A stretch of DNA of 64,000 bases from Lepidurus packardi (Eukaryota > Arthropoda > Branchiopoda > Notostraca > Triopsidae), in assembly GCA_023053545.1 (NCBI GenBank), contig JAKZAN010000249.1:1-64000 (forward strand), written 5' to 3'. This document shows positions 1-64,000 of the stretch, piece after piece. The position numbers were made by a program, and so were the translations under genes. Below the pieces are notes generated by a model. It was not told where the DNA came from, ran no database searches, and was given only the letters and a program-made list of their open reading frames with translations. The number at the start of each line of letters is the position of its first letter. Positions within the stretch are counted from its first letter, which is position 1.

Positions 1-20
1 ACGGACTGAATTAATTCCTT
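1..20 (+). repeat. Consensus monomer (first copy in window)
   Basis: Bases 1-20 are a perfect consensus unit, ACGGACTGAATTAATTCCTT. Positions 8-17 (GAATTAATTC) are a perfect 10-bp palindrome. The full 20-mer is also an imperfect dyad about positions 10/11: pairs 1-20, 3-18, 4-17, 5-16, 7-14, 9-12 and 10-11 match, while 2-19, 6-15 and 8-13 do not (7 of 10). An AT-rich half (AATTAATT) and a GC-richer half (CCTTACGGAC) alternate every 20 bp, close to two turns of B-DNA. Commonly varied sites are position 7-8 (ACTT for ACTG), 15-18 (TTCATT, TTTCAT, TACCTT, AATCCTT) and 19-20/1-3. Confidence 0.97.
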
Positions 21-240
21 ACGGACTGAAATAATTCCTTACGGACTGAATTAATTCCTTACGGACTGAATTAATTCCTTACGGACTGTATTAATTCCTT
101 TCTTACTGAATTAATTCCTTACGGACTGAATTAATTTCATACGGACTGAATTAATTCCTTATGGACTGAATTAATTCCTTACGGACTGAATTAATTCCTT
201 ACGGACTGAATTAATTCCTTACGGACTGAAATAATTCTTT

Positions 241-279
241 AGGATTGATTGAATTCCTTTCTTACCGAATTAATTCCTT
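241..279 (+). repeat. 39-bp marker, C-type (prototype)
   Basis: This is a two-monomer variant, AGGATTGATTGAATTCCTTT then the 19-bp CTTACCGAATTAATTCCTT. The missing base shifts the 20-bp register by one at each occurrence. The first half carries an EcoRI site (GAATTC), which the consensus monomer lacks. It is preceded by a monomer ending TTCTTT. Early C-type copies begin at 241, 480, 719, 1,995, 2,234, 2,473, 3,501, 3,740, 4,219 and 4,618. The copy at 5,587 has lost one further T, and the copy at 13,492 reads AAAATTGATT. Confidence 0.95.
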
Positions 280-718
280 ACGGACTGAATTAATTCCTTA
301 CGGACTGAATTAATTCCTTACGGACTGAATTAATTCCTTACGGACTGAATTAATACCTTACGGACTGAATTAAATCCTTACGGACTGAATTAATTCCTTA
401 CGGACTGAATTAATTCCTTACGGACTGAATTAATTCCTTACGGACTGAATTAATTCCTTACGGACTGAATTAATTCTTTAGGATTGATTGAATTCCTTTC
501 TTACCGAATTAATTCCTTACGGACTGAATTAATTCCTTACGGACTGAATTAATTCCTTACGGACTGAATTAATTCCTTACGGACTGAATTAATACCTTAC
601 GGACTGAATTAAATCCTTACGGACTGAATTAATTCCTTACGGACTGAATTAATTCCTTACGGACTGAATTAATTCCTTACGGACTGAATTATTTCCTTAC
701 GGACTGAATTAATTCTTT
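241..718 (+). repeat. 239-bp basal higher-order unit, two tandem copies
   Basis: One unit is 12 monomers: the 39-bp marker, three consensus monomers, one ending TAATACCTT, one ending TAAATCCTT, four consensus or near-consensus monomers, and one ending TTCTTT (11 x 20 + 19 = 239). Copies begin at 241 and 480. In the second copy one late monomer has ATTATTTCC. The same pair recurs at 1,995-2,472, 13,492-13,969 and 18,062-18,539, each followed by a shortened 119-bp unit. Confidence 0.93.
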
Positions 719-837
719 AGGATTGATTGAATTCCTTTCTTACCGAATTAATTCCTTACGGACTGAATTAATTCCTTACGGACTGAATTAATTCCTTACG
801 GACTTAATTATTTCCTTACGGACTGAATTAATTCTTT

Positions 838-876
838 AGGATTGATTGAATTCCTTTCTTACTGAATTAATTCCTT
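838..876 (+). repeat. 39-bp marker, T-type (prototype)
   Basis: Same element as the C-type but with CTTACTGAATTAATTCCTT in the 19-bp half. T-type and C-type copies occupy fixed places within the HORs: in the left domain a marker 119 bp after a C-type copy is T-type (838, 2,592, 4,737, 7,849, 9,257, 10,745, 12,973, 14,089, 15,936, 17,543, 18,659, 23,718, 25,146, 28,172, 29,600, 30,529). This shows that the single C/T difference is copied with the block. Confidence 0.92.
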
Positions 877-916
877 ACGGACTGAATTAATTCCTTACGG
901 ACTGAATTAATTCATT

Positions 917-1016
917 ACCGACATAATTAAATCCTTACAGACTGAAATTATTCCTTATGGACTTAACTAATTCCGTAAGGAATGAATTAATTAATTACGG
1001 ACTGAAATAATTCCTT
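917..1016 (+). repeat. Five-monomer cassette, left-domain form
   Basis: Ordered variants are ACCGACATAATTAAATCCTT, ACAGACTGAAATTATTCCTT, ATGGACTTAACTAATTCCGT, AAGGAATGAATTAATTAATT and ACGGACTGAAATAATTCCTT. Two monomers carry the products expected from CpG deamination at the single consensus CpG (ACAG and ATGG). The cassette recurs in fixed order throughout the left domain (near 2,671, 4,796, 6,075, 7,928, 9,346 and onward). In many later copies the fourth monomer reads AAGGAATGAATGAATTAATT. Confidence 0.9.
963..990 (+). repeat. Inverted repeat with GTAA loop, left-domain form
   Basis: Left arm 963-974 (TTAACTAATTCC), loop 975-978 (GTAA) and right arm 979-990 (GGAATGAATTAA). Ten of 12 positions pair, including five unbroken pairs next to the loop (ATTCC with GGAAT). 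In RNA the loop would be GUAA, which fits the GNRA tetraloop pattern. Three substitutions against the consensus (T to G at monomer position 19, then C to A at positions 2 and 6 of the next monomer) create the dyad. Confidence 0.75.
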
Positions 1017-1754
1017 ACGGACTGAATTAATTCCTTACGGACTGAATTAATTCCTTACGGACTGAATTAATTCCTTACGGACTGAATTAATTCCTTACGG
1101 ACTGTATTAATTCCTTTCTTACTGAATTAATTCCTTAAGGACTGAATTAATTTCATACGGACTGAATTAATTCATTACATACTTAATTAATCCAATACGT
1201 ACTGAACTTATTCATTACGGACTGAATTATTTCCTTACGGACTGAATTAATTCTTTAGGATTGATTGAATTCCTTTCTTACTGAATTAATTCCTTACGGA
1301 CTGAATTAATTCCTTACGGACTTAATTAATTCCGTAAGGAATGAATTAATTAATTACGGACTGAAATAATTCCTTACGGAATGAATTAATTCCTTACGGA
1401 CTTCATTATATCCTTTCGGACTGAATTAATACCTTACGGACTTAATTAATTCACTACGGACTGAATTAATACCTTACGGACTGAATTAAATCCTTACGGA
1501 CAGAATTAATTCCTTACGGACTGAATTAATTCCTTACGGACTTAATTATTTCCTTACGGACTGAATTAATTCTTTAGGATTGATTGAATTCCTTTCTTAC
1601 TGAATTAATTCCTTACGGACTGAATTAATTCCTTACGGACTGAATTAATTCATTACCGACATAATTAAATCCTTACAGACTGAAATTATTCCTTATGGAC
1701 TTAACTAATTCCGTAAGGAATGAATGAATTAATTACGGACTGAAATAATTCCTT

Positions 1755-3405
1755 ACGGACTGAATTAATTCCTTACGGACTGAAATAATTCCTTACGGAC
1801 TGAATTAATTCCTTACGGACTGAATTAATTCCTTACGGACTGTATTAATTCCTTTCTTACTGAATTAATTCCTTACGGACTGAATTAATTTCATACGGAC
1901 TGAATTAATTCCTTATGGACTGAATTAATTCCTTACGGACTGAATTAATTCCTTACGGACTGAATTAATTCCTTACGGACTGAAATAATTCTTTAGGATT
2001 GATTGAATTCCTTTCTTACCGAATTAATTCCTTACGGACTGAATTAATTCCTTACGGACTGAATTAATTCCTTACGGACTGAATTAATTCCTTACGGACT
2101 GAATTAATACCTTACGGACTGAATTAAATCCTTACGGACTGAATTAATTCCTTACGGACTGAATTAATTCCTTACGGACTGAATTAATTCCTTACGGACT
2201 GAATTAATTCCTTACGGACTGAATTAATTCTTTAGGATTGATTGAATTCCTTTCTTACCGAATTAATTCCTTACGGACTGAATTAATTCCTTACGGACTG
2301 AATTAATTCCTTACGGACTGAATTAATTCCTTACGGACTGAATTAATACCTTACGGACTGAATTAAATCCTTACGGACTGAATTAATTCCTTACGGACTG
2401 AATTAATTCCTTACGGACTGAATTAATTCCTTACGGACTGAATTATTTCCTTACGGACTGAATTAATTCTTTAGGATTGATTGAATTCCTTTCTTACCGA
2501 ATTAATTCCTTACGGACTGAATTAATTCCTTACGGACTGAATTAATTCCTTACGGACTTAATTATTTCCTTACGGACTGAATTAATTCTTTAGGATTGAT
2601 TGAATTCCTTTCTTACTGAATTAATTCCTTACGGACTGAATTAATTCCTTACGGACTGAATTAATTCATTACCGACATAATTAAATCCTTACAGACTGAA
2701 ATTATTCCTTATGGACTTAACTAATTCCGTAAGGAATGAATTAATTAATTACGGACTGAAATAATTCCTTACGGACTGAATTAATTCCTTACGGACTGAA
2801 TTAATTCCTTACGGACTGAATTAATTCCTTACGGACTGAATTAATTCCTTACGGACTGTATTAATTCCTTTCTTACTGAATTAATTCCTTAAGGACTGAA
2901 TTAATTTCATACGGACTGAATTAATTCATTACATACTTAATTAATCCAATACGTACTGAACTTATTCATTACGGACTGAATTATTTCCTTACGGACTGAA
3001 TTAATTCTTTAGGATTGATTGAATTCCTTTCTTACTGAATTAATTCCTTACGGACTGAATTAATTCCTTACGGACTTAATTAATTCCGTAAGGAATGAAT
3101 TAATTAATTACGGACTGAAATAATTCCTTACGGAATGAATTAATTCCTTACGGACTTCATTCTATCCTTTCGGACTGAATTAATACCTTACGGACTTAAT
3201 TAATTCACTACGGACTGAATTAATACCTTACGGACTGAATTAAATCCTTACGGACAGAATTAATTCCTTACGGACTGAATTAATTCCTTACGGACTTAAT
3301 TATTTCCTTACGGACTGAATTAATTCTTTAGGATTGATTGAATTCCTTTCTTACTGAATTAATTCCTTACGGACTGAATTAATTCCTTACGGACTGAATT
3401 AATTC
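1755..3405 (+). repeat. 1,754-bp HOR, copy 2 (truncated at ~1,651 bp)
   Basis: This matches copy 1 almost base for base. The one substitution I found is A at 1,408 against C at 3,162. The match ends near 3,405, where copy 1 goes on with CATTACCGACATAATT and copy 2 goes on with consensus monomers and a truncated monomer at 3,429. Confidence 0.9.
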
Positions 3406-3428
3406 CTTACGGACTGAATTAATTCCTT

Positions 3429-3440
3429 AATTAATTCCTT
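3429..3440 (+). repeat. Truncated 12-bp monomer (8-bp deletion)
   Basis: AATTAATTCCTT follows a complete monomer directly, so ACGGACTG is missing. The junction CCTTAATTAATTCC contains a PacI site (TTAATTAA). The same junction recurs near 5,034, 6,323, 6,933, 7,026, 7,534, 8,942, 10,430, 11,580 and on through all domains, becoming very frequent after 50 kb. A copy at 30,868-30,879 reads ACTTAATTCCTT. Confidence 0.9.
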
Positions 3441-4038
3441 ACGGACTGAATTAATTTCATACGGACTGAATTATTTCCTTACGGACTGAATTAATTCTTT
3501 AGGATTGATTGAATTCCTTTCTTACCGAATTAATTCCTTACGGACTGAATTAATTCCTTACGTACTTATGTAATTCCTTACGGTCTGAATTAATTCCGTA
3601 CGGATTTTATTAATTACTTACGGACTGAATTAATTCCTTACGGATTTAATTAATTCCTTACGGACTGAATTAATTCCTTACGGACTGAATTAATTCCTTA
3701 CGGACTGAATTATTTCCTTACGGACTGAATTAATTCTTTAGGATTGATTGAATTCCTTTCTTACCGAATTAATTCCTTACGGACTGAATTAATTCCTTAC
3801 GGACTGAATTAATTCCTTACGGACTGAATTAATTCCTTACGGACTGAATTAATTCCTTACGGACTGAATTAATACCTTACGGACTGAATTAAATCCTTAC
3901 GGACTGAATTAATTCCTTACGGACTGAATTAATTCCTTACGGACTGAAATAATTCCTTACTGACTGAATTAATTCCTTACGGACTGAATTAATTCCTTAC
4001 GGACTGAATTAATTCCTTACGGACTTAATTAATTCCTT

Positions 4039-4138
4039 ACGTACTTAATTAATTCCTTACGGTCTGAATTAATTCCGTACGGATTTTATTAATTACTTAC
4101 GGACTGAATTAATTCCTTACGGATTTAATTAATTCCTT
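4039..4138 (+). repeat. GTAC module (five variant monomers)
   Basis: Ordered monomers are ACGTACTTAATTAATTCCTT, ACGGTCTGAATTAATTCCGT, ACGGATTTTATTAATTACTT, a consensus copy, and ACGGATTTAATTAATTCCTT. It recurs from 7,039, 7,550, 8,958 and 10,446, whose spacing (511, 1,408, 1,488) matches the marker spacing of the 1,448-bp HOR. A diverged copy lies near 3,559, where one monomer reads ACGTACTTATGTAATTCCTT. Confidence 0.88.
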
Positions 4139-4218
4139 ACGGACTGAATTAATTCCTTACGGACTGAATTAATTCCTTACGGACTGAATTATTTCCTTAC
4201 GGACTGAATTAATTCTTT

Positions 4219-11523: not shown

Positions 11524-12415
11524 CGCACTGAATTAATTCTTTACTTACTGAATTAATTCCTTACGGACTGAATCAATTCCTTAATTAATTCCTTACGGAC
11601 TGTATTAATTCCTTTCTTACTGAATTAATTCCTTAAGGACTGAATTAATTCCTTAATTAATTCCTTACGGACTGAATTAATTTCATACGGACTGAATTAA
11701 TTCATTAGGACTTAATTAATCCAATACGTACTGAACTTATTCATTACGGACTGAATTATTTCCTTACGGACTGAATTAATTCTTTAGGATTGATTGAATT
11801 CCTTTCTTACTGAATTAATTCCTTACGGACTGAATTAATTCCTTACGGACTTAATTAATTCCGTAAGGAATGAATTAGTTCATTACGGACTGAAATAATT
11901 CCTTACGGAATGAATTAATTCCTTACGGACTTCATTAATTCCTTTCGGACTGAATTAATACCTTACGGACTTAATTAATTCACTACGGACTGAATTAATA
12001 CCTTACGGACTGAATTAAATCCTTACGGACAGAATTAATTCCTTACGGACTGAATTAATTCCTTACGGACTTAATTATTTCCTTACGGACTGAATTAATT
12101 CTTTAGGATTGATTGAATTCCTTTCTTACTGAATTAATTCCTTACGTACTGAATTAATTCCCTACGGACTGAATTAATTCCTTACGGACTTAAATAATTC
12201 CGTAAGGAATGAATTAATTAATTACGGACTGAAATAATTCCTTACGGACTGAATTAATTACTTACGGACTGAATTAATTCCTTAATTAATTCCTTACGGA
12301 CTGAATTAATTTCATACGGACTGAATTAATTCCTTATGGACTGAATTAATTCCTTACGGACTGAATTAATTCCTTACGGACTGAATTAATTCCTTACGGA
12401 CTGAAATAATTCTTT
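11344..12415 (+). repeat. Block 442/319/311, copy 1
   Basis: Marker intervals 442, 319 and 311 bp starting at 11,344 recur from 21,016 to 22,087 (offset 9,672), and a shorter relative (430, 319, 291) lies at 19,258-20,297. The 319-bp segment has GAATTAGTTCATTACGG and ACTTCATTAATTCCTTTCGG, and recurs at 12,105, 20,007, 21,777, 23,009, 26,554 and 27,463 as the interval ending there. Confidence 0.82.
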
Positions 12416-22689: not shown

Positions 22690-25600
22690 AGGATTGATTG
22701 AATTCCTTTCTTACTGAATTAATTCCTTACGGACTGAATTAATTCCTTACGGACTTAATTAATTCCGTAAGGAATGAATTAGTTCATTACGGACTGAAAT
22801 AATTCCTTACGGAATGAATTAATTCCTTACGGACTTCATTAATTCCTTTCGGACTGAATTAATACCTTACGGACTTAATTAATTCACTACGGACTGAATT
22901 AATACCTTACGGACTGAATTAAATCCTTACGGACAGAATTAATTCCTTACGGACTGAATTAATTCCTTACGGACTTAATTATTTCCTTACGGACTGAATT
23001 AATTCTTTAGGATTGATTGAATTCCTTTCTTACTGAATTAATTCCTTACGGACTGAATTAATTCCCTACGGACTGAATTAATTCCTTACGGACTTAATTA
23101 ATTCCGTAAGGAATGAATTAATTAATTACGGACTAAAATAATTCCTTACGGACTGAATTAATTACTTACGGACTGAATTAATTCCTTAATTAATTCCTTA
23201 CGGACTGAATTAATTTCATACGGACTGAATTAATTCCTTATGGACTGAATTAATTCCTTACGGACTGAATTAATTCCTTACGGACTGAATTAATTCCTTA
23301 CGGACTGAAATAATTCTTTAGGATTGATTGAATTCCTTTCTTACCGAATTAATTCCTTACGGACTGAATTAATTCCTTACGGACTGAATTAATTCCTTAC
23401 GGACTGAATTAATTCCTTACGGACTGAATTAATACCTTACGGACTGAATTAAATCCTTACGGACTGAATTAATTCCTTACGGACTGAATTAATTCCTTAC
23501 GGACTGAATTAATTCCTTACGGACTGAATTAATTCCTTACGGACTGAATTAATTCCTTACGGACTGAATTATTTCCTTACGGACTGAATTAATTCTTTAG
23601 GATTGATTGAATTCCTTTCTTACCGAATTAATTCCTTACGGACTGAATTAATTCCTTACGGACTGAATTAATTCCTTACGGACTTAATTATTTCCTTACG
23701 GACTGAATTAATTCTTTAGGATTGATTGAATTCCTTTCTTACTGAATTAATTCCTTACGGACTGAATTAATTCCTTGCGGACTGAATTAATTCATTACCG
23801 ACATAATTAAATCCTTACAGACTGAAATTATTCCTTATGGACTTAACTAATTCCGTAAGGAATGAATTAATTCATTACGGACTTAATTAATCGATTTCGG
23901 ACTGAATTAATTCATTACGGACTTAGTTAAATCCTTAAAGACTGAATTAATTCCTTATGGACTGAATTAATTCCGTAAGGAATGAATTAATTAATTACGG
24001 ACTGAAATAATACCTTACGGACTGAATTAATTCCTTACGGACTTCATTAATTCCTTTCGGACTGAATTAATACCTTACGGACTTAATTAATTCACTACGG
24101 ACTGAATTAATTCCTTACGGACTGAATTAATTCCTTACGGACTGAAATAATTCTTTAGGATTGATTGAATTCCTTTCTTACCGAATTAATTCCTTACGGA
24201 CTGAATTAATTCCTTACGGACTGAATTAATTCCTTACGGACTGAATTAATTCCTTACGGACTGAATTAATACCTTACGGACTGAATTAAATCCTTACGGA
24301 CTGAATTAATTCCTTACGGACTGAATTAATTCCTTGCGGACTGAATTAATTCATTACCGACATAATTAAATCCTTACAGACTGAAATTATTCCTTATGGA
24401 CTTAACTAATTCCGTAAGGAATGAATTAATTCATTACGGACTTAATTAATCGATTTCGGACTGAATTAATTCATTACGGACTTAGTTAAATCCTTAAAGA
24501 CTGAATTAATTCCTTATGGACTGAATTAATTCCGTAAGGAATGAATTAATTAATTACGGACTGAAATAATTCCTTACGGACTGAATTAATTACTTACGGA
24601 CTGAATTAATTCCTTAATTAATTCCTTACGGACTGAATTAATTTCATACGGACTGAATTAATTCCTTATGGACTGAATTAATTCCTTACGGACTGAATTA
24701 ATTCCTTACGGACTGAATTAATTCCTTACGGACTGAAATAATTCTTTAGGATTGATTGAATTCCTTTCTTACCGAATTAATTCCTTACGGACTGAATTAA
24801 TTCCTTACGGACTGAATTAATTCCTTACGGACTGAATTAATTCCTTACGGACTGAATTAATACCTTACGGACTGAATTAAATCCTTACGGACTGAATTAA
24901 TTCCTTACGGACTGAATTAATTCCTTACGGACTGAATTAATTCCTTACGGACTGAATTAATTCCTTACGGACTGAATTAATTCCTTACGGACTGAATTAT
25001 TTCCTTACGGACTGAATTAATTCTTTAGGATTGATTGAATTCCTTTCTTACCGAATTAATTCCTTACGGACTGAATTAATTCCTTACGGACTGAATTAAT
25101 TCCTTACGGACTTAATTATTTCCTTACGGACTGAATTAATTCTTTAGGATTGATTGAATTCCTTTCTTACTGAATTAATTCCTTACGGACTGAATTAATT
25201 CCTTGCGGACTGAATTAATTCATTACCGACATAATTAAATCCTTACAGACTGAAATTATTCCTTATGGACTTAACTAATTCCGTAAGGAATGAATTAATT
25301 CATTACGGACTTAATTAATCGATTTCGGACTGAATTAATTCATTACGGACTTAGTTAAATCCTTAAAGACTGAATTAATTCCTTATGGACTGAATTAATT
25401 CCGTAAGGAATGAATTAATTAATTACGGACTGAAATAATACCTTACGGACTGAATTAATTCCTTACGGACTTCATTAATTCCTTTCGGACTGAATTAATA
25501 CCTTACGGACTTAATTAATTCACTACGGACTGAATTAATACCTTACGGACTGAATTAAATCCTTAAGGACAGAATTAATTCCTTACGGACTGAATTAATT

Positions 25601-26040
25601 CCTTACGGACTTAATTATTTCCTTACGGACTGAATTAATTCTTTAGGATTGATTGAATTCCTTTCTTACTGAATTAATTCCTTACGGACTGAATTAATTC
25701 CCTACGGACTGAATTAATTCCTTACGGACTTAATTAATTCCGTAAGGAATGAATTAATTAATTACGGACTGAAATAATTCCTTACGGACTGAATTAATTA
25801 CTTACGGACTGAATTAATTCCTTAATTAATTCCTTACGGACTGAATTAATTTCATACGGACTGAATTAATTCCTTATGGACTGAATTAATTCCTTACGGA
25901 CTGAATTAATTCCTTACGGACTGAATTAATTCCTTACGGACTGAAATAATTCTTTAGGATTGATTGAATTCCTTTCTTACCGAATTAATTCCTTACGGAC
26001 TGAATTAATTCCTTACGGACTGAATTAATTCCTTACGGAC
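22690..26040 (+). repeat. 3.35-kb duplicated block, copy 1 (offset 4,454)
   Basis: Markers at 22,690, 23,009, 23,320, 23,599, 23,718, 24,157, 24,748, 25,027, 25,146, 25,645 and 25,956 all recur exactly 4,454 bp downstream. Substitutions found by eye are A at 23,135 (GACTAAAATA) against G at 27,589, and the first marker being T-type here but C-type at 27,144. Confidence 0.9.
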
Positions 26041-26553
26041 TGAATTAATTCCTTACGGACTGAATTAATACCTTACGGACTGAATTAAATCCTTACGGAC
26101 TGAATTAATTCCTTACGGACTGAATTAATTCCTTACGGACTGAATTAATTCCTTACGGACTGAATTAATTCCTTACGGACTGAATTAATTCCTTACGGAC
26201 TGAATTATTTCCTTACGGACTGAATTAATTCTTTAGGATTGATTGAATTCCTTTCTTACCGAATTAATTCCTTACGGACTGAATTAATTCCTTACGGACT
26301 TAATTAATTCCGTAAGGAATGAATTAGTTCATTACGGACTGAAATAATTCCTTACGGAATGAATTAATTCCTTACGGACTTCATTAATTCCTTTCGGACT
26401 GAATTAATACCTTACGGACTTAATTAATTCACTACGGACTGAATTAATACCTTACGGACTGAATTAAATCCTTACGGACAGAATTAATTCCTTACGGACT
26501 GAATTAATTCCTTACGGACTTAATTATTTCCTTACGGACTGAATTAATTCTTT
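25645..26553 (+). repeat. 909-bp HOR, copy 1
   Basis: Marker intervals 311, 279 and 319 bp. Internal landmarks are TTCCCTACGG after the first marker, the truncated monomer and TTTCAT, TAATACC/TAAATCC, GAATTAGTTCATT and ACTTCATTAATTCC. It sits between the two 3.35-kb blocks and overlaps the end of the first. Confidence 0.9.
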
Positions 26554-27462
26554 AGGATTGATTGAATTCCTTTCTTACTGAATTAATTCCTTACGGACTG
26601 AATTAATTCCCTACGGACTGAATTAATTCCTTACGGACTTAATTAATTCCGTAAGGAATGAATTAATTAATTACGGACTGAAATAATTCCTTACGGACTG
26701 AATTAATTACTTACGGACTGAATTAATTCCTTAATTAATTCCTTACGGACTGAATTAATTTCATACGGACTGAATTAATTCCTTATGGACTGAATTAATT
26801 CCTTACGGACTGAATTAATTCCTTACGGACTGAATTAATTCCTTACGGACTGAAATAATTCTTTAGGATTGATTGAATTCCTTTCTTACCGAATTAATTC
26901 CTTACGGACTGAATTAATTCCTTACGGACTGAATTAATTCCTTACGGACTGAATTAATTCCTTACGGACTGAATTAATACCTTACGGACTGAATTAAATC
27001 CTTACGGACTGAATTAATTCCTTACGGACTGAATTAATTCCTTACGGACTGAATTAATTCCTTACGGACTGAATTAATTCCTTACGGACTGAATTAATTC
27101 CTTACGGACTGAATTATTTCCTTACGGACTGAATTAATTCTTTAGGATTGATTGAATTCCTTTCTTACCGAATTAATTCCTTACGGACTGAATTAATTCC
27201 TTACGGACTTAATTAATTCCGTAAGGAATGAATTAGTTCATTACGGACTGAAATAATTCCTTACGGAATGAATTAATTCCTTACGGACTTCATTAATTCC
27301 TTTCGGACTGAATTAATACCTTACGGACTTAATTAATTCACTACGGACTGAATTAATACCTTACGGACTGAATTAAATCCTTACGGACAGAATTAATTCC
27401 TTACGGACTGAATTAATTCCTTACGGACTTAATTATTTCCTTACGGACTGAATTAATTCTTT
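26554..27462 (+). repeat. 909-bp HOR, copy 2
   Basis: The same 311, 279 and 319-bp intervals, and no difference from copy 1 in the stretches compared by eye. Confidence 0.9.
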
Positions 27463-30400
27463 AGGATTGATTGAATTCCTTTCTTACTGAATTAATTCCT
27501 TACGGACTGAATTAATTCCCTACGGACTGAATTAATTCCTTACGGACTTAATTAATTCCGTAAGGAATGAATTAATTAATTACGGACTGAAATAATTCCT
27601 TACGGACTGAATTAATTACTTACGGACTGAATTAATTCCTTAATTAATTCCTTACGGACTGAATTAATTTCATACGGACTGAATTAATTCCTTATGGACT
27701 GAATTAATTCCTTACGGACTGAATTAATTCCTTACGGACTGAATTAATTCCTTACGGACTGAAATAATTCTTTAGGATTGATTGAATTCCTTTCTTACCG
27801 AATTAATTCCTTACGGACTGAATTAATTCCTTACGGACTGAATTAATTCCTTACGGACTGAATTAATTCCTTACGGACTGAATTAATACCTTACGGACTG
27901 AATTAAATCCTTACGGACTGAATTAATTCCTTACGGACTGAATTAATTCCTTACGGACTGAATTAATTCCTTACGGACTGAATTAATTCCTTACGGACTG
28001 AATTAATTCCTTACGGACTGAATTATTTCCTTACGGACTGAATTAATTCTTTAGGATTGATTGAATTCCTTTCTTACCGAATTAATTCCTTACGGACTGA
28101 ATTAATTCCTTACGGACTGAATTAATTCCTTACGGACTTAATTATTTCCTTACGGACTGAATTAATTCTTTAGGATTGATTGAATTCCTTTCTTACTGAA
28201 TTAATTCCTTACGGACTGAATTAATTCCTTGCGGACTGAATTAATTCATTACCGACATAATTAAATCCTTACAGACTGAAATTATTCCTTATGGACTTAA
28301 CTAATTCCGTAAGGAATGAATTAATTCATTACGGACTTAATTAATCGATTTCGGACTGAATTAATTCATTACGGACTTAGTTAAATCCTTAAAGACTGAA
28401 TTAATTCCTTATGGACTGAATTAATTCCGTAAGGAATGAATTAATTAATTACGGACTGAAATAATACCTTACGGACTGAATTAATTCCTTACGGACTTCA
28501 TTAATTCCTTTCGGACTGAATTAATACCTTACGGACTTAATTAATTCACTACGGACTGAATTAATTCCTTACGGACTGAATTAATTCCTTACGGACTGAA
28601 ATAATTCTTTAGGATTGATTGAATTCCTTTCTTACCGAATTAATTCCTTACGGACTGAATTAATTCCTTACGGACTGAATTAATTCCTTACGGACTGAAT
28701 TAATTCCTTACGGACTGAATTAATACCTTACGGACTGAATTAAATCCTTACGGACTGAATTAATTCCTTACGGACTGAATTAATTCCTTGCGGACTGAAT
28801 TAATTCATTACCGACATAATTAAATCCTTACAGACTGAAATTATTCCTTATGGACTTAACTAATTCCGTAAGGAATGAATTAATTCATTACGGACTTAAT
28901 TAATCGATTTCGGACTGAATTAATTCATTACGGACTTAGTTAAATCCTTAAAGACTGAATTAATTCCTTATGGACTGAATTAATTCCGTAAGGAATGAAT
29001 TAATTAATTACGGACTGAAATAATTCCTTACGGACTGAATTAATTACTTACGGACTGAATTAATTCCTTAATTAATTCCTTACGGACTGAATTAATTTCA
29101 TACGGACTGAATTAATTCCTTATGGACTGAATTAATTCCTTACGGACTGAATTAATTCCTTACGGACTGAATTAATTCCTTACGGACTGAAATAATTCTT
29201 TAGGATTGATTGAATTCCTTTCTTACCGAATTAATTCCTTACGGACTGAATTAATTCCTTACGGACTGAATTAATTCCTTACGGACTGAATTAATTCCTT
29301 ACGGACTGAATTAATACCTTACGGACTGAATTAAATCCTTACGGACTGAATTAATTCCTTACGGACTGAATTAATTCCTTACGGACTGAATTAATTCCTT
29401 ACGGACTGAATTAATTCCTTACGGACTGAATTAATTCCTTACGGACTGAATTATTTCCTTACGGACTGAATTAATTCTTTAGGATTGATTGAATTCCTTT
29501 CTTACCGAATTAATTCCTTACGGACTGAATTAATTCCTTACGGACTGAATTAATTCCTTACGGACTTAATTATTTCCTTACGGACTGAATTAATTCTTTA
29601 GGATTGATTGAATTCCTTTCTTACTGAATTAATTCCTTACGGACTGAATTAATTCCTTGCGGACTGAATTAATTCATTACCGACATAATTAAATCCTTAC
29701 AGACTGAAATTATTCCTTATGGACTTAACTAATTCCGTAAGGAATGAATTAATTCATTACGGACTTAATTAATCGATTTCGGACTGAATTAATTCATTAC
29801 GGACTTAGTTAAATCCTTAAAGACTGAATTAATTCCTTATGGACTGAATTAATTCCGTAAGGAATGAATTAATTAATTACGGACTGAAATAATACCTTAC
29901 GGACTGAATTAATTCCTTACGGACTTCATTAATTCCTTTCGGACTGAATTAATACCTTACGGACTTAATTAATTCACTACGGACTGAATTAATACCTTAC
30001 GGACTGAATTAAATCCTTAAGGACAGAATTAATTCCTTACGGACTGAATTAATTCCTTACGGACTTAATTATTTCCTTACGGACTGAATTAATTCTTTAG
30101 GATTGATTGAATTCCTTTCTTACTGAATTAATTCCTTACGGACTGAATTAATTCCCTACGGACTGAATTAATTCCTTACGGACTTAATTAATTCCGTAAG
30201 GAATGAATTAATTAATTACGGACTGAAATAATTCCTTACGGACTGAATTAATTACTTACGGACTGAATTAATTCCTTAATTAATTCCTTACGGACTGAAT
30301 TAATTTCATACGGACTGAATTAATTCCTTATGGACTGAATTAATTCCTTACGGACTGAATTAATTCCTTACGGACTGAATTAATTCCTTACGGACTGAAA

Positions 30401-30494
30401 TAATTCTTTAGGATTGATTGAATTCCTTTCTTACCGAATTAATTCCTTACGGACTGAATTAATTCCTTACGGACTGAATTAATTCCTTACGGAC
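27144..30494 (+). repeat. 3.35-kb duplicated block, copy 2
   Basis: Marker series 27,144 to 30,410 repeats copy 1 at a constant 4,454 bp, with matching variants such as the CCTTGCGG monomer (23,777 and 28,231). The match ends near 30,494, where ACTTAATTATTTCC replaces a consensus monomer. Confidence 0.9.
27463..28125 (+). repeat. 909-bp HOR, copy 3 (partial, ~663 bp)
   Basis: Intervals of 311 and 279 bp repeat the unit. After the marker at 28,053 the sequence passes into ACTTAATTATTTCC and a 119-bp unit instead of the 319-bp segment, so the third copy is incomplete. The same bases belong to the second 3.35-kb block. Confidence 0.85.
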
Positions 30495-30999
30495 TTAATT
30501 ATTTCCTTACGGACTGAATTAATTCTTTAGGATTGATTGAATTCCTTTCTTACTGAATTAATTCCTTACGGACTGAATTAATTCCTTGCGGACTGAATTA
30601 ATTCATTACCGACATAATTAAATCCTTACAGACTGAAATTATTCCTTATGGACTTAACTAATTCCGTAAGGAATGAATTAATTCATTACGGACTTAATTA
30701 ATCGATTTCGGACTGAATTAATTCATTACGGACTTAGTTAAATCCTTAAAGACTGAATTAATTCCTTATGGACTGAATTAATTCCGTAAGGAATGAATTA
30801 ATTAATTACGGACTGAAATAATACCTTACGGACTGAATTAATTACTTACGGACTGAATTAATTCCTTACTTAATTCCTTACGGACTGAATTAATTTCATA
30901 CGGACTGAATTAATTCCTTATGGACTGAATTAATTCCTTACGGACTGAATTAATTCCTTACGGACTGAATTAATTCCTTACGGACTGAAATAATTCTTT

Positions 31000-50706: not shown

Positions 50707-52793
50707 TACGGACTGAATTAATTCCTTACGGACTGAATTAATACATTACTGACTGAATTAAATCCTTACGGACTGAATTAATTCCTTACGGACTGAATTT
50801 ATTCCTTACGGACTGAAATAATTCCTTACGGACTGAATTAATTCCTTACGGACTGAATTAATTCCTTACGGGCTGAATTAATTCCTTACGGACTGAATTA
50901 ATTCCTTAATTAACTCCTTACGGACTGAATTAATTTCATACGGACTGAATTAATTCCTTACGGACTGAATTAATACCTTACGGACTGAATTAAATCCTTA
51001 CGGACTGAATTAATTCCTTACGGATTGAATTTATTCCTTACGGACTGAAATAATTCCTTACGGACTGAAATAATTCCTTACTTACTGAATTAATTCCTTA
51101 CGGGCTGAATTAAATCCTTACAGACTGAATTAATTCCTTATGGACTTAATTAAACCCGTAAGGAATTAATTAATTAATTACGGACTGAATTAATTCCTTA
51201 CGGACTGAATTAATTCCTTACGGACTGAATTAATTCCTTACGGACTGAATTAATTCCTTACGGACTGTATTAATTCCTTAATTAATTCCTTACGGACTGA
51301 ATTAATTTCATACGGACTGAATTAATTTCACACGGACTGAATTAATTCATTTCGGACTTAATTAATCGATTACGGACTGAAATAATTCCTCACGTAATGA
51401 ACTTATTCCTTACGGACTGGATTAATTCCTTACGGACTGAATTAAATCCTTACGGACTGAATGAATTCCTTACGGACTGAATTAATTTCATACGGACTGA
51501 ATTAATTCATTACGGACTGAATTAATTCCTTACGTAATTAATTAATTCCTTACGGACTGAATTAATTCCGTACGGATTTAATTAATTCCTTACGGACTGA
51601 ATTAATTCCTTACGGACTGAATTAATTCATTATGGACTTAATTAATTCCGTAAGGAATGAATGAATTAATTACGGACTGAATTAATTCCTTACGGACTGA
51701 ATTAATTCCTTACGGACTGAATTAATTCCTTACGGACTGAATTAATTCCTTACGGACTGAATTAATTCCTTACGGACTGAATTAATTCCTTACGGACTGA
51801 ATTAATTCCTTACGGACTGAATTAATTCCTTAATTAATTCCTTACGGACTGAATTAATTTCATACGGACTGAATTAATTTCACACGGACTGAATTAATTC
51901 ATTTCGGACTTAATTAATCGATTACGGACTGAAATAATTCCTCACGTAATGAACTTATTCCTTACGGACTGGATTAATTCCTTACGGACTGAATTAAATC
52001 CTTACGGACTGAATTAATTCCTTACGGACTGAATTAATTTCATACGGACTGAATTAATTCATTACGGACCTAATTAATCGATTTCGGACTGAATTAATTC
52101 ATTACGGACTTAATTAAATCCTTACAGACTGAACTAATTCCTTATGGACTTAATTAATTCCGTAAGGAATGAATTAATTAATTACGGACTGAAATAATTC
52201 CTTACGGACTGAATTAATTCCTTACGGACTGAATTAATTCCTTACGGACTGAATTAATTCCTTACGGACTGAATTAATTCCTTACGGACTGAATTAATTC
52301 CTTACGGACTGAATTAATTCCTTACGGACTGAATTAATTCCTTAATTAATTTCATACTTACTGAATTAATTTCACACGGACTGAATTAATTCATTTCGGA
52401 CTTAATTAATCGATTACGGACTGAAATAATTCCTCACGTAATGAACTTATTCCTTACGGACTGGATTAATTCCTTACGGACTGAATTAATTCCTTACGGA
52501 CTGAATTAATTACTTACGGACTGAATTAGTTCCTTACGGACTGAATTAATTCTTTAGGATTGATTGAATTCCTTTCTTACTGAATTAATTCCTTACGAAA
52601 TGAATTAATTTCATACGGACTGAATTAATTCCTTACGGACTGAATTAATTCATTACGGACTTAATTAAATCCTTACAGACTGAATTAATTCCTTATGGAC
52701 TTAATTAATTCCGTAAGGAATGAATTAATTAATTACGGACTGAAATAATTCCTTACGGACTGAATTAATTCCTTACGGACTGAATTAATTCCT
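50707..52793 (+). repeat. 2,087-bp HOR, copy 1
   Basis: Landmarks repeat at offset 2,087: TACATTACTGACTG (50,744 and 52,831) and TAACTCCTTACGG (50,911 and 52,998). Other matched private monomers are TTAAACCCGTAAGG, CGTAATTAATTAATTCC, TTTCATACTTACTG and CCTTACGAAATG. Within it the CCTCACGTAATG...CGGACTGG block occurs three times at roughly half-kilobase intervals. Confidence 0.9.
52104..52203 (+). repeat. Five-monomer cassette, right-domain form
   Basis: ACGGACTTAATTAAATCCTT, ACAGACTGAACTAATTCCTT, ATGGACTTAATTAATTCCGT, AAGGAATGAATTAATTAATT, ACGGACTGAAATAATTCCTT. Only the second monomer differs from the middle form (GAACTAATT against GAGTTAATT). It contains the 11-of-12 GTAA inverted repeat. 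Nearby variants TTAAACCCGTAAGG (51,147, 53,234) and TTAATCCCGTAAGG (57,112, 60,805) alter the left arm. Confidence 0.85.
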
Positions 52794-54880
52794 TACGGGC
52801 TGAATTAATTCCTTACGGACTGAATTAATACATTACTGACTGAATTAAATCCTTACGGACTGAATTAATTCCTTACGGACTGAATTTATTCCTTACGGAC
52901 TGAAATAATTCCTTACGGACTGAATTAATTCCTTACGGACTGAATTAATTCCTTACGGGCTGAATTAATTCCTTACGGACTGAATTAATTCCTTAATTAA
53001 CTCCTTACGGACTGAATTAATTTCATACGGACTGAATTAATTCCTTACGGACTGAATTAATACCTTACGGACTGAATTAAATCCTTACGGACTGAATTAA
53101 TTCCTTACGGATTGAATTTATTCCTTACGGACTGAAATAATTCCTTACGGACTGAAATAATTCCTTACTTACTGAATTAATTCCTTACGGGCTGAATTAA
53201 ATCCTTACAGACTGAATTAATTCCTTATGGACTTAATTAAACCCGTAAGGAATTAATTAATTAATTACGGACTGAATTAATTCCTTACGGACTGAATTAA
53301 TTCCTTACGGACTGAATTAATTCCTTACGGACTGAATTAATTCCTTACGGACTGTATTAATTCCTTAATTAATTCCTTACGGACTGAATTAATTTCATAC
53401 GGACTGAATTAATTTCACACGGACTGAATTAATTCATTTCGGACTTAATTAATCGATTACGGACTGAAATAATTCCTCACGTAATGAACTTATTCCTTAC
53501 GGACTGGATTAATTCCTTACGGACTGAATTAAATCCTTACGGACTGAATGAATTCCTTACGGACTGAATTAATTTCATACGGACTGAATTAATTCATTAC
53601 GGACTGAATTAATTCCTTACGTAATTAATTAATTCCTTACGGACTGAATTAATTCCGTACGGATTTAATTAATTCCTTACGGACTGAATTAATTCCTTAC
53701 GGACTGAATTAATTCATTATGGACTTAATTAATTCCGTAAGGAATGAATGAATTAATTACGGACTGAATTAATTCCTTACGGACTGAATTAATTCCTTAC
53801 GGACTGAATTAATTCCTTACGGACTGAATTAATTCCTTACGGACTGAATTAATTCCTTACGGACTGAATTAATTCCTTACGGACTGAATTAATTCCTTAC
53901 GGACTGAATTAATTCCTTAATTAATTCCTTACGGACTGAATTAATTTCATACGGACTGAATTAATTTCACACGGACTGAATTAATTCATTTCGGACTTAA
54001 TTAATCGATTACGGACTGAAATAATTCCTCACGTAATGAACTTATTCCTTACGGACTGGATTAATTCCTTACGGACTGAATTAAATCCTTACGGACTGAA
54101 TTAATTCCTTACGGACTGAATTAATTTCATACGGACTGAATTAATTCATTACGGACCTAATTAATCGATTTCGGACTGAATTAATTCATTACGGACTTAA
54201 TTAAATCCTTACAGACTGAACTAATTCCTTATGGACTTAATTAATTCCGTAAGGAATGAATTAATTAATTACGGACTGAAATAATTCCTTACGGACTGAA
54301 TTAATTCCTTACGGACTGAATTAATTCCTTACGGACTGAATTAATTCCTTACGGACTGAATTAATTCCTTACGGACTGAATTAATTCCTTACGGACTGAA
54401 TTAATTCCTTACGGACTGAATTAATTCCTTAATTAATTTCATACTTACTGAATTAATTTCACACGGACTGAATTAATTCATTTCGGACTTAATTAATCGA
54501 TTACGGACTGAAATAATTCCTCACGTAATGAACTTATTCCTTACGGACTGGATTAATTCCTTACGGACTGAATTAATTCCTTACGGACTGAATTAATTAC
54601 TTACGGACTGAATTAGTTCCTTACGGACTGAATTAATTCTTTAGGATTGATTGAATTCCTTTCTTACTGAATTAATTCCTTACGAAATGAATTAATTTCA
54701 TACGGACTGAATTAATTCCTTACGGACTGAATTAATTCATTACGGACTTAATTAAATCCTTACAGACTGAATTAATTCCTTATGGACTTAATTAATTCCG
54801 TAAGGAATGAATTAATTAATTACGGACTGAAATAATTCCTTACGGACTGAATTAATTCCTTACGGACTGAATTAATTCCT
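52794..54880 (+). repeat. 2,087-bp HOR, copy 2
   Basis: Identical to copy 1 in every stretch compared, until about 54,897, where copy 1's continuation TTAATTCCTTACGG becomes TTAATTGCTTACGG and a different block begins. Confidence 0.9.
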
Positions 54881-57474
54881 TACGGGCTGAATTAATTGCT
54901 TACGGACTGAATTAATTCCTTACGGACTGAATTAATACCTTACGGACTGAATTAAATCCTTACGGACTGAATTAATTCCTTACGTACTTAATTAATTCCT
55001 TACGGACTGAATTAATTCCGTACGGATATAATTAATTCCTTACGGACTGAATTAATTCCTTACGGACTGAATTAATTCATTATGGACTTAATTAATTCCG
55101 TAAGGAATGAATGAATTAATTACGGATTGAAATAATTCCTTACGGACTGAATTAATTCCTTACGGACTGAATTATTTCCTTACGGACTGAATTAATTCTT
55201 TAGGATTTATTGAATTCCGTTCTTACTGAATTAATTCCTTACGGGCTGAATTAAATCGTTACGGACTGAATTAATTCCTTACGGACTGAATTAATTCCTT
55301 ACGGACTGAATTAATTCCTTACGGACTGAATTAATTCCATACGGACTTAATTAATTCCTTACGGACTGAATTAATTATTTACGGACTAAATTAATTCCTT
55401 ACGGACTGAATTAGTTCCTTACGGACTGAATTAATTCTTTAGGATTGATTGAATTCCTTTCTTACTGAATTAATTCATTACGGACTTAATTAATTTATTA
55501 CGGACTGAATTAATTCCTTACGTACTGAACTTATTCCTTACGGACTGAATTAATTCCTTACGGACTGAATTAATTCCTTACGGACTGAATTAATTCCTTA
55601 CGGACTGAATTAATACCTTACGGACTGAATTAAATCCTTACGGACTGAATTAATTCCTTACGGACTGAATTTATTCCTTACGGACTGAAATAATTCCTTA
55701 CGGACTGAATTAATTCCTTACGGACTGAATTAATTCCTTACGGGCTGAATTAATTCCTTACGGACTGAATTAATTCCTTAATTAATTCCTTACGGACTGA
55801 ATTAATTTCATACGGACTGAATTAATTCCTTACGGACTGAATTAATACCTTACGGACTGAATTAAATCCTTACGGACTGAATTAATTCCTTACGGACTGA
55901 ATTAATTTATTACGAATGAATTAATTCCGTACGGATTTTATTAATTCCTTACGGATTAAATTAATTCATTACGGACTTAATTAATAAATTACGGACTGAA
56001 TTATTTCCTTACGTACTGAAGTTATTCCTTACGGACTGAATTAATTGCTTACGGACTGAATTAATTCCTTACGGACTGAATTAATACCTTACGGACTGAA
56101 TTAAATCCTTACGGACTGAATTAATTCCTTACGTACTTAATTAATTCCTTACGGACTGAATTAATTCCGTACGGATTTAATTAATTCCTTACGGACTGAA
56201 TTAATTCCTTACGGACTGAATTAATTCATTATGGACTTAATTAATTCCGTAAGGAATGAATGAATTAATTACGGATTGAAATAATTCCTTACGGACTGAA
56301 TTAATTCCTTACGGACTGAATTATTTCCTTACGGACTGAATTAATTCTTTAGGATTTATTGAATTCCGTTCTTACTGAATTAATTCCTTACGGGCTGAAT
56401 TAAATCGTTACGGACTGAATTAATTCCTTACGGACTGAATTAATTCCTTACGGACTGAATTAATTCCTTACGGACTGAATTAATTCCATACGGACTTAAT
56501 TAATTCCTTACGGACTGAATTAATTATTTACGGACTAAATTAATTCCTTACGGACTGAATTAGTTCCTTACGGACTAAATTAATTCTTTAGGATTGATTG
56601 AATTCCTTTCTTACTGAATTAATTCATTACGGACTTAATTAATTTATTACGGACTGAATTAATTCCTTACGTACTGAACTTATTCCTTACGGACTGAATT
56701 AATTCCTTACGGACTGAATTAATTCCTTACGGACTGAATTAATTCCTTACGGACTGAATTAATACCTTACTGACTGAATTAAATCCTTACGGACTGAATT
56801 AATTCCTTACGGACTGAATTTATTCCTTACGGACTGAAATAATTCCTTACGGACTGAATTAATTCCTTACGGACTGAATTAATTCCTTACGGGCTGAATT
56901 AATTCCTTACGGACTGAATTAATTCCTTAATTAACTCCTTACGGACTGAATTAATTTCATACGGACTGAATTAATTCCTTACGGATTGAATTTATTCCTT
57001 ACGGACTGAAATAATTCCTTACGGACTGAAATAATTCCTTACTTACTGAATTAATTCCTTACGGGCTGAATTAAATCCTTACAGACTGAATTAATTCCTT
57101 ATGGACTTAATTAATCCCGTAAGGAATGAATTAATTAATTACGGACTGAATTAATTCCTTACGGACTGAATTAATTCCTTACGGACTGAATTAATTCCTT
57201 ACGGACTGAATTAATTCCTTACGGACTGTATTAATTCCTTAATTAATTCCTTACGGACTGAATTAATTTCATACGGACTGAATTAATTTCACACGGACTG
57301 AATTAATTCATTTCGGACTTAATTAATCGATTACGGACTGAAATAATTCCTCACGTAATGAACTTATTCCTTACGGACTGGATTAATTCCTTACGGACTG
57401 AATTAAATCCTTACGGACTGAATTAATTTCATACGGACTGAATTAATTCATTACGGACTGAATTAATTCCTTAC
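53621..57474 (+). repeat. ~3.7-3.85-kb HOR, copy 1
   Basis: Landmarks recur downstream at offsets that fall stepwise: 3,854 bp (CGTAATTAATT, 53,621 and 57,475), about 3,834 near 54.6 kb, 3,735 near 54.9-55.2 kb (CGGGCTGAATTAAATCG, 55,242 and 58,977), and 3,693 near 56.4-56.9 kb (TAACTCC, 56,932 and 60,625). It overlaps the end of the second 2,087-bp copy. This copy has a marker at 54,643. Confidence 0.82.
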
Positions 57475-60400: not shown

Positions 60401-61190
60401 TACGGACTGAATTAATTCCTTACGGACTGAATTAATTCCTTACGGACTGAATTAATACCTTACTGACTGAATTAAATCCTTACGGACTGAATTAATTCCT
60501 TACGGACTGAATTTATTCCTTACGGACTGAAATAATTCCTTACGGACTGAATTAATTCCTTACGGACTGAATTAATTCCTTACGGGCTGAATTAATTCCT
60601 TACGGACTGAATTAATTCCTTAATTAACTCCTTACGGACTGAATTAATTTCATACGGACTGAATTAATTCCTTACGGATTGAATTTATTCCTTACGGACT
60701 GAAATAATTCCTTACGGACTGAAATAATTCCTTACTTACTGAATTAATTCCTTACGGGCTGAATTAAATCCTTACAGACTGAATTAATTCCTTATGGACT
60801 TAATTAATCCCGTAAGGAATGAATTAATTAATTACGGACTGAATTAATTCCTTACGGACTGAATTAATTCCTTACGGACTGAATTAATTCCTTACGGACT
60901 GAATTAATTCCTTACGGACTGTATTAATTCCTTAATTAATTCCTTACGGACTGAATTAATTTCATACGGACTGAATTAATTTCACACGGACTGAATTAAT
61001 TCATTTCGGACTTAATTAATCGATTACGGACTGAAATAATTCCTCACGTAATGAACTTATTCCTTACGGACTGGATTAATTCCTTACGGACTGAATTAAA
61101 TCCTTACGGACTGAATGAATTCCTTACGGACTGAATTAATTTCATACGGACTGAATTAATTCATTACGGACTGAATTAATTCCTTACGTA
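57475..61190 (+). repeat. ~3.7-3.85-kb HOR, copy 2
   Basis: Shorter than copy 1 by small losses. One of about 99 bp near 58,460 removed the equivalent of the marker at 54,643. About 40 bp was lost near 59,415 (the GAAATAATTCC pair), and single bases near 59,027 (GAATAATTCC) and 59,664 (CATTAGGAC). Near 61,190 the sequence jumps back to the CGTACTTAATTAATTCC block otherwise found at 54,984 and 58,719. Confidence 0.8.
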
Positions 61191-64000
61191 CTTAATTAAT
61201 TCCTTACGGACTGAATTAATTCCGTACGGATTTAATTAATTCCTTACGGACTGAATTAATTCCTTACGGACTGAATTAATTCATTATGGACTTAATTAAT
61301 TCCGTAAGGAATGAATGAATTAATTACGGATTGAAATAATTCCTTACGGACTGAATTAATTCCTTACGGACTGAATTATTTCCTTACGGACTGAATTAAT
61401 TCTTTAGGATTTATTGAATTCCGTTCTTACTGAATTAATTCCTTACGGGCTGAATTAAATCGTTACGGACTGAATTAATTCCTTACGGACTGAATTAATT
61501 CCTTACGGACTGAATTAATTCCTTACGGACTGAATTAATTCCATACGGACTTAATTAATTCCTTACGGACTGAATTAATTATTTACGGACTAAATTAATT
61601 CCTTACGGACTGAATTAGTTCCTTACGGACTGAATTAATTCTTTAGGATTGATTGAATTCCTTTCTTACTGAATTAATTCATTACGGACTTAATTCATTT
61701 ATTACGGACTGAATTAATTCCTTACGTACTGAACTTATTCCTTACGGACTGAATTAATTCCTTACGGACTGAATTAATTCCTTACGGACTGAATTAATTC
61801 CTTACGGACTGAATTAATACCTTACGGACTGAATTAAATCCTTACGGACTGAATTAATTCCTTACGGACTGAATTTATTCCTTACGGACTGAAATAATTC
61901 CTTACGGACTGAATTAATTCCTTACGGACTGAATTAATTCCTTACGGGCTGAATTAATTCCTTACGGACTGAATTAATTCCTTAATTAATTCCTTACGGA
62001 CTGAATTAATTTCATACGGACTGAATTAATTCCTTACGGACTGAATTAATACCTTACGGACTGAATTAAATCCTTACGGACTGAATTAATTCCTTACGGA
62101 TTGAATTTATTCCTTACGGACTGAAATAATTCCTTACGGACTGAAATAATTCCTTACGGACTGAATTAATTCCTTACGGGCTGAATTAAATCCTTACAGA
62201 CTGAATTAATTCCTTATGGACTTAATTAATCCCGTAAGGAATGAATGAATTAATTACGGACTGAATTAATTCCTTACGGACTGAATTAATTCCTTACGGA
62301 CTGAATTAATTCCTTACGGACTGAATTAATTCCTTACGGACTGAATTAATTCCTTACGGACTGAATTAATTCCTTAATTAATTCCTTACGGACTGAATTA
62401 ATTTCATACGGACTGAATTAATTTCACACGGACTGAATTAATTCATTTCGGACTTAATTAATCGATTACGGACTGAAATAATTCCTCACGTAATGAACTT
62501 ATTCCTTACGGACTGGATTAATTCCTTAGGGACTGAATTAAATCCTTACGGACTGAATGAATTCCTTACGGACTGAATTAATTTCATACGGACTGAATTA
62601 ATTCATTACGGACTTAATTAATTTATTACGGACTGAATTAATTCCTTACGTACTGAACTTATTCGTTACGGACTGAATTAATTCCTTATGGACTGAATTA
62701 ATTCCTTACGGACTGAATTAAATCCTTATGGACTTAATTTATTCTGTAAGGAATGAATTAATTAATTACGGACTGAAATAATTCCTTACGGACTGAATTA
62801 ATTCCTTACGGACTGAATTAATTCCTTACGGACTGAATTAATTCCTTACGGACTGAATTAATTCCTTAATTAATTCCTTACGGACTGAATTAATTTCAAA
62901 CGGACTGAATTAATTCCTTACGGATTGAATTAATTTCATACGGACTGAATTAATTCATTACGGACTGAATTAATTCTTACGGACTTAATTAGTTCCTTAA
63001 TTAATTCCTTACGGACTGAATTAATTCCTTACGGACTGAATTAATTCCTTAATTAATTCCTTACGGACTGAATTAATTTCATACGGACTGAATTAATTCA
63101 TTACGGACTTAATTAATCGATTTCGGACTGAATTAATTCATTACGGACTTAATTAAATCCTTACAGACTGAATTAATTCCTTATGGACTTAATTCCGTAA
63201 GGAATGAATTAATTAATTACGGACTGAATTAATTCCTTACGGACTGAATTAATTCCTTACGGACTGAATTAATTCCTTACGGACTGAATTAATTCCTTAC
63301 GGACTGAATTAATTCCTTACGGACTGAATTAATTCCTTACGGACTGAATTAATTCCTTACGGACTGAATTAATTCCTTACGGACTGAATTAATTCCTTAA
63401 TTAATTCCTTACGGACTGAATTAATTTCATACGGACTGAATTAATTTCACACGGACTGAATTAATTCATTACGGACTTAATTAATCGATTACGGACTGAA
63501 ATAATTCCTCACGTAATGAACTTATTCCTTACGGACTGGATTAATTCCTTACGGACTGAATTAAATCCTTACGGACTGAATTAATTCCTAACGGACTGAA
63601 TTAATTTCATACGGACTGAATTAATTCATTACGGACTTAATTAATCGATTTCGGACTGAATTAATTCATTACGGACTTAATTAAATCCTTACAGACTGAA
63701 CTAATTCCTTATGGACTTAATTAATTCCGTAAGGAATGAATTAATTAATTACGGACTGAAATAATTCCTTACGGACTGAATTAATTCCTTACGGACTGAA
63801 TTAATTCCTTACGGACTGAATTAATTCCTTACGGACTGAATTAATTCCTTAATTAATTCCTTACGGACTGAATTAATTTCATACGGACTGAATTAATTTC
63901 ACACGGACTGAATTAATTCATTTCGGACTTAATTAATCGATTACGGACTGAAATAATTCCTCACGTAATGAACTTATTCCTTACGGACTGGATTAATTCC
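61191..64000 (+). repeat. Right-end array, HOR relatives
   Basis: It contains another CCGTTC marker (61,406) and its T-type partner (61,645), then two or more CCTCACGTAATG blocks (near 62,483, 63,507 and 63,958). Small private deletions occur: CTTAATTCCGTAAGG near 63,188 (4 bp lost from the left arm of the inverted repeat) and TTAATTCTTACGG near 62,971. The repeat continues unbroken to the last base. Confidence 0.85.

Follow-up and report, generated by a model that had tools for sequence, protein, structure and literature searches.

An abundant, locally homogenised 20-bp satellite DNA in the notostracan Lepidurus packardi as a candidate component of pericentromeric or centromeric heterochromatin

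Here we describe a 20-bp satellite DNA of the notostracan Lepidurus packardi, which fills a stretch of 64,000 nucleotides of the genome assembly (GenBank GCA_023053545.1, contig JAKZAN010000249.1, positions 1 to 64,000 of the forward strand; hereafter the window). Homogenisation of this satellite is active yet local, proceeding largely array by array and not array-wide. Its arrays probably represent pericentromeric or centromeric heterochromatin in the broad sense, because abundance, position at one scaffold end, a margin invaded by retrotransposons and block duplication typify such satellites. That the 20-bp satellite also carries the kinetochore, and is hence functional centromere DNA of a crustacean lineage, is a narrower proposal that we put forward tentatively.

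Array structure and block duplication in the window

Tandem Repeats Finder (TRF) reports a single tandem array across positions 1-64000, with a period of 20, 3,237.9 copies, 83% matches and 2% indels, and gives the consensus of the 20-bp monomer as ACGGACTGAATTAATTCCTT; the remaining 63 TRF rows for the window are short overlapping periods of this one array. Wrap-around alignment divides the window into 3,238 monomers (2,944 of 20 bp, 214 of 19, 62 of 13 and 18 of other lengths), in agreement with a first, sequence-only reading of the window that had counted about 3,200 head-to-tail copies filling it. The window covers positions 1-64000 of an unplaced contig of 66,961 bp (C238), the last 2,961 bases of which are likewise satellite, and the array therefore extends beyond both contig ends. 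Exact forward copies of the monomer number 936 in the window, and the opposite strand holds no exact 20-mer in any rotation. The 25 longest inverted-repeat pairs listed for positions 1-20000 are merely 70-71% complementary, a level that arises because the monomer has a partial symmetry of its own. No open reading frame of at least 100 amino acids and no Rfam family at gathering score were found in the window. The absence of transposons, genes and strand changes noted in the sequence-only reading thus holds within the window. Elsewhere the satellite is interrupted by retrotransposons at the end of one large scaffold, and it switches strand both there and in a smaller contig (see below). Taken as head-to-tail arrays of kilobases upward that are non-coding and present in high copy number, the element is an ordinary kind of satellite DNA.

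The array is far from pure, contrary to what had been read from it at first. The consensus is matched exactly by 895 of the 3,238 monomers, and 72% deviate from it; the aligned monomers fall into 227 distinct forms, and agreement with the consensus averages 0.913 per position. With 72% of the monomers unlike the consensus, we rejected purity as a sign of homogenisation; the true sign is the local duplication of blocks. In the window, 83.4% of 100-mers, 67.7% of 200-mers and 46.2% of 400-mers recur, against means of 0.6%, 0.0% and 0.0% in five shuffles of the monomer order, and since the shuffled order yields 0.0% recurring 200-mers, chance is excluded. Maximal exact repeat pairs of at least 300 bp number 193, and 12 of them reach at least 1,000 bp, the longest measuring 2,906 bp at a lag of 4,454. 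Exact pairs of at least 300 bp are separated by a median distance of 5.9 kb, with 90% no more than 15.3 kb apart, so that the monomer variants make the scale of exchange measurable.

Repeat spacings vary along the window (909, 1,301, 1,488, 2,087 and 2,284 bp, among others), with the commonest lags at about 0.9 to 4.5 kb and with 909 among the commonest spacings of repeated 60-mers. Multi-monomer blocks hence recur beyond the shuffled expectation, as in higher-order repeats, and no unit dominates; a single dominant higher-order unit was ruled out because the best lags, and with them the repeat distances, shift along the window. The two 32-kb halves of the window have 0.00 of their 200-mers and 0.03 to 0.07 of their 100-mers in common. 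Compared with arrays sampled from the large scaffolds C1, C2, C3 and C4, the window shares 0.00 of 200-mers with each, and 0.02 of 100-mers with C4 and 0.00 with C1, C2 and C3. Homogenisation is therefore short-range and takes place mostly within each array. As such, the active homogenisation proposed in the earlier reading is borne out by exact duplicated blocks of up to 2,906 bp, but neither purity as its sign nor action across the whole array is. The similarity of the copies is probably maintained through unequal exchange, slippage or gene conversion between neighbours, for the most part over distances of up to about 15 kb.

The monomer includes a dyad, GAATTAATTC, and one might suppose that this palindrome is constrained by selection and recruits a centromere or heterochromatin protein. 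In 7 of 7 arrays, conservation is higher in its core AATTAATT than in the other 12 positions combined; as single-stranded DNA, a trimer gives a better fold than 200 of 200 shuffles (z -4.04); and short centromeric monomers with dyads are known in Chionographis (extracts of PMC10264360). However, the arrays are related, hence the seven are not independent tests, and good folding is to be expected of every perfect repeat that contains a palindrome. In addition, the A/T positions outside the core (0, 4, 6, 18 and 19) average above the core in five of the seven arrays and lie within 0.005 below it in the remaining two, whereas G/C positions are lower on average, a pattern that a mutation bias from G/C to A/T explains; this comparison was worked by hand from rounded per-position values. 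The higher conservation of the core is explained by loss of G and C, and a selected palindrome, unsupported after allowing for base type, seems improbable to us.

Genome load and chromosomal position

The assembly comprises 108,557,554 bases in 344 contigs, including six scaffolds of 10.7-14.0 Mb (C1 to C6). Exact monomers number 87,465 genome-wide (49,334 forward and 38,131 reverse), and a reversed-sequence control 20-mer does not occur in the assembly. At the density of the window this count corresponds to about 6.0 Mb of satellite and at that of a sample from C2 (74 per 10 kb) to about 11.8 Mb; the total at the density of a sample from C1 also exceeds about 6.0 Mb. Exact trimers (6,199 + 4,731 = 10,930, against 191 in the window) correspond to 3.7 Mb of window-like array, and as this estimate is below that from monomers, the remaining satellite is more diverged. 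The one other satellite counted, an AT-rich, AAATTTC-like repeat, gives 3,887 exact 20-mers. This difference in abundance, together with the location of the 20-bp satellite near one end of four of the six large scaffolds (C1-C4), lends indirect support to the earlier suggestion of a structural chromosome region.

On C1, exact monomers are confined to the last 91 kb (the first at 13,957,360 of 14,048,370), and the first 10 kb are without the 20-bp satellite. The satellite at this margin is interrupted by a long interspersed nuclear element (LINE) with endonuclease and reverse-transcriptase domains, and by further insertions, namely a second reverse-transcriptase element and elements of the Pao type, the copia type (two) and the Ty3 type. 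The two copia-type elements (region C1:14009923-14020368), opposite in direction and near-identical by eye (one was scanned), flank a satellite block inside which the strand flips, through either a real inversion or a mis-join. On C2, exact trimers are restricted to 3-22 kb on the minus strand and 165 kb on the plus strand, and probes at 50, 100 and 200 kb gave no satellite. C3 begins with about 8.4 kb of AAATTTC satellite, followed by 20-bp satellite to beyond 15 kb and none at 30 kb, and C4 carries the 20-bp satellite at 1-10, 30, 60 and 120 kb and not at 240 kb. C5 opens with 5,000 N and C6 with AAATTTC satellite, and the last 1 kb of each of C2, C3, C4, C5 and C6 contains no 20-bp satellite. 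A perfect 7-fold repeat (140 bp) was not found on C2, C3, C5 or C6 among the matches listed, which were the first 100 of 180 in contig order and had moved from C4 to C30-C50. The 20-bp arrays on C2 and C3 are made of diverged copies; on C5 and C6, such copies were sought in the first 10 kb and the last 1 kb, plus three 500-base probes on C6.

Beyond the large scaffolds, the satellite was met in 13 of 15 probes of C30 (799,521 bp), across 50-700 kb, on the minus strand at 50-250 kb, the plus strand at 300-550 kb and the minus strand again at 650-700 kb, with other DNA at the start and at 600 kb; outside the window, arrays thus reach hundreds of kilobases. Single probes in C35, C36 and C40 hit satellite, and single probes in C49 and C237 did not, C49 having 7-fold repeats elsewhere. 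The AAATTTC satellite occupies C3:1-8450, where it directly adjoins the 20-bp satellite, as well as C6:1-10000 and C4 at 519-524 kb, with TRF periods of 11, 34, 45, 123 and 201. C3 terminates in TTAGG telomere repeats at the end opposite its satellite, and a four-fold TTAGGN repeat is absent from the assembly. Exact, overlapping 20-mers of TTAGG total 155; among the first 100 listed, 10 form the C3 end and the others lie elsewhere, and interstitial TTAGG runs occur away from scaffold ends, e.g. at C1:3349115.

Part of this picture might be an artefact of assembly, with expanded or mis-joined satellite in the unplaced contig accounting for the array or its block duplications. That contig is satellite throughout, the assembly includes probable bacterial contigs plus contigs of exactly 25,000 and 125,000 bases, and a mis-join may underlie the strand flip on C1 between the two oppositely directed copia elements. 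However, the duplications are of many sizes and distances, unlike the product of one duplicated contig end, the monomer recurs at four scaffold ends and in C30, C35, C36 and C40, and its count far exceeds what one error gives. We therefore give an artefact of this kind little credence.

Centromeric and heterochromatic readings

According to extracts of PMC4053949, the most abundant tandem repeat of a genome was assumed there to be its centromere DNA, and this proved true for most characterised species. The window lies inside an array of a main satellite of this small arthropod genome; such arrays are non-coding and would provide heterochromatin or centromere chromatin with a substrate that is long and uniform.

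Several points weigh against placing the satellite at or around the centromere. The abundance rule has exceptions, among them maize knobs and the tammar wallaby (extracts of PMC4053949). Occurrence on every chromosome is putative, given the N run and the AAATTTC satellite with which C5 and C6 start; neither of these scaffolds has a perfect 7-fold repeat among the matches listed (100 of 180), nor do C2 and C3, where the arrays are diverged. The AAATTTC satellite, which lies outside the 20-bp satellite on C3, could be the core instead. Moreover, all evidence is of sequence, and the positions are contingent on the assembly, the ends of which break off within satellite. Finally, the sole CENP-A-like histone detected has in-frame stops.

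This histone is encoded at C283:36,711-36,953 as an 81-residue piece of centromere-type H3, which aligns to H3 with one extra loop residue, has RW and DAYL, and shares with yeast Cse4 a tryptophan in place of the phenylalanine of H3. It is the only centromere-type match among 49 places listed, the other 48 being at 46-52% identity and resembling H3 or near variants; one H3 search scored 150 of 221 candidates, and the other scored 50. The frame is open from 36,711, but the longer Pfam match at C283:36,585-36,929 is interrupted in its upstream part by four stops in frame, TAG three times and TAA once; two fall inside the histone-like stretch, and because of these stops the gene may be a relic. 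Separately, an H3.3-like histone with an altered tail, in which ARTKQTARKSTAQKVPRKQLVAQKIARKSAP replaces the usual residues around K14-K23, is present at C76:103700-104140 and C87:43900-44340.

Alternatively, the satellite might form a block of non-centromeric heterochromatin, such as an acrocentric short arm, a knob or a subtelomeric satellite, that has spread by amplification and has no role in segregation. Its location at an end in four of the six large scaffolds would fit such a block, as would the position of the second satellite outside it on C3, the lack of a pure array on C5 and C6 among the 7-fold matches listed (100 of 180), and the precedent of maize knobs for abundant repeats that are not centromeric (extracts of PMC4053949). 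However, the satellite is single-ended wherever both ends were sampled (the first 10 kb of C1 and the last 1 kb of C2, C3 and C4 are clear), the TTAGG telomere seen on C3 stands at the opposite end, and none of the TTAGG places listed (the first 100, in contig order past C86) lies in the satellite contigs C30 and C35. With respect to a subtelomeric position in particular, for which satellite beside telomere repeats and as a rule at both chromosome ends would be expected, the last 1 kb is clear on C5 and C6 as well as on C2 and C4, and the satellite-bearing ends are unfinished. Taken together, we consider a block of this sort somewhat unlikely and favour the pericentromeric or centromeric reading.

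Window features, other observations and comparison with known satellites

Table 1. Positions of the satellite array and of its variant and duplicated blocks in the window
Feature	Position	Strand	Basis or remark
20-bp satellite array, consensus ACGGACTGAATTAATTCCTT, about 3,238 monomers, uniform orientation, continuing to the end of C238	1..64000	+	TRF, wrap-around alignment, strand counts
19-bp variant monomer AGGATTGATTGAATTCCTT, first occurrence	241..259	+	One of 114 in the window, beside a TCTTAC... variant; marks local higher-order blocks
Longest duplicated block, copy 1 (2,906 bp, exact)	23136..26041	+	Maximal exact repeat pairs; lag 4,454
Longest duplicated block, copy 2 (2,906 bp)	27590..30495	+	Maximal exact repeat pairs
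2,087-bp higher-order block, two copies in tandem	50713..54897	+	Repeated exactly over 2,098 bp at lag 2,087
Tandem 909-bp higher-order block	25567..28118	+	Repeated exactly over 1,643 bp at lag 909

Some further features of the assembly are recorded here in their own right. C52, C43 and C214 are probably bacterial contigs, as their cytochrome oxidase genes are free of stops when read with the standard code, the GC content around these genes being 41% in C52 and C43 and 66% in C214. Mitochondrial cox1 is present in the nuclear genome as many copies or fragments that contain TGA codons and further stops, at C6:697216-698557 and on C4, C2, C38 and other contigs. The copy on C6 has the order nad2, cox1, Leu(UUR)-like tRNA (read by eye), cox2, which we take to be the pancrustacean arrangement; a tRNA scan of this copy found none. 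The gustatory receptor family 7tm_7 matches at 34 places in the genome, and the odorant receptor family 7tm_6 at none, in a search whose controls were prokaryotic and silent; this contrast argues against a winged insect. Nematode SL1 RNA gave no match either, in a search whose control was also silent. Receptor matches, mitochondrial gene order and TTAGG repeats would by themselves make the host a probable crustacean or other non-insect pancrustacean. The notostracan Triops cancriformis has a small genome. Tadpole shrimps fit in chromosome number, an extract of PMC4815504 giving 2n = 12 for this species. Four primers from PMC5429740 were compared with one nuclear mitochondrial copy: three fitted it no better than shuffled primers did (7-9 mismatches), and the fourth (ATP8), placed after cox2, had 5 of 20 mismatches against a best of 6 in 20 shuffles. 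Primer matching thus did not support T. cancriformis and speaks neither for nor against another tadpole shrimp.

The satellite seems to be undescribed. Six 14-mers covering all rotations of the monomer on both strands were unmatched in the open-access literature (5.39 million papers), where printing with spaces or in a supplement would escape such a search, and searches by wording returned nothing recognisable as a description of this satellite. The exact 20-mer does not occur in viral or prokaryote contigs, and as the satellite is also present on the large scaffolds of the assembly, a contaminant or prokaryotic origin was ruled out. These results agree with the initial reading, which did not recognise the monomer as a published satellite; its novelty is putative.

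Comparison with known systems places the satellite among familiar kinds. Human alpha satellite has a 171-bp monomer, regular higher-order units and margins invaded by retrotransposons; the present satellite resembles it in its homogenised array, higher-order blocks and retrotransposon-invaded margins, but has a 20-bp monomer and block lengths that vary over 64 kb with none dominant. The simple satellites of Drosophila, with units of about 5-12 bp in large amounts, are likewise short and abundant in an arthropod, whereas the present unit is longer and has many monomer variants. Tek et al. in 2011 reportedly described a 20-bp centromeric tandem repeat in Astragalus sinicus, which, compared by title alone and not by sequence, is alike in its tandem 20-bp monomer and different in that its host is a plant and its centromeric nature is given by the title. 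Chio1 and Chio2 of Chionographis japonica, as far as extracts of PMC10264360 describe them, are also alike in their short monomers (23 and 28 bp) with dyad symmetry, their higher-order variants and their arrays of mixed orientation. However, they belong to a holocentric plant with 7-11 centromere units per chromosome by chromatin immunoprecipitation (ChIP) of CENH3, whereas the present satellite lies near one scaffold end and its centromere role is putative.

Our literature searches found no centromere sequence for the group of the host; a copepod study located centromeres by Hi-C, and the word satellite is not used in the extract of it (PMC12639140). If the 20-bp satellite did not mark the centromeres, the present finding would amount to routine repeat annotation. 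If it were functional centromere DNA, its monomer would be unusually short for an animal centromere satellite and would be renewed by the duplication of blocks of a few kilobases, making for a compact system in which the turnover of arrays could be watched directly. In addition, should the satellite mark the centromeres, chromosome ends and meiosis could be probed with it in this crustacean lineage.

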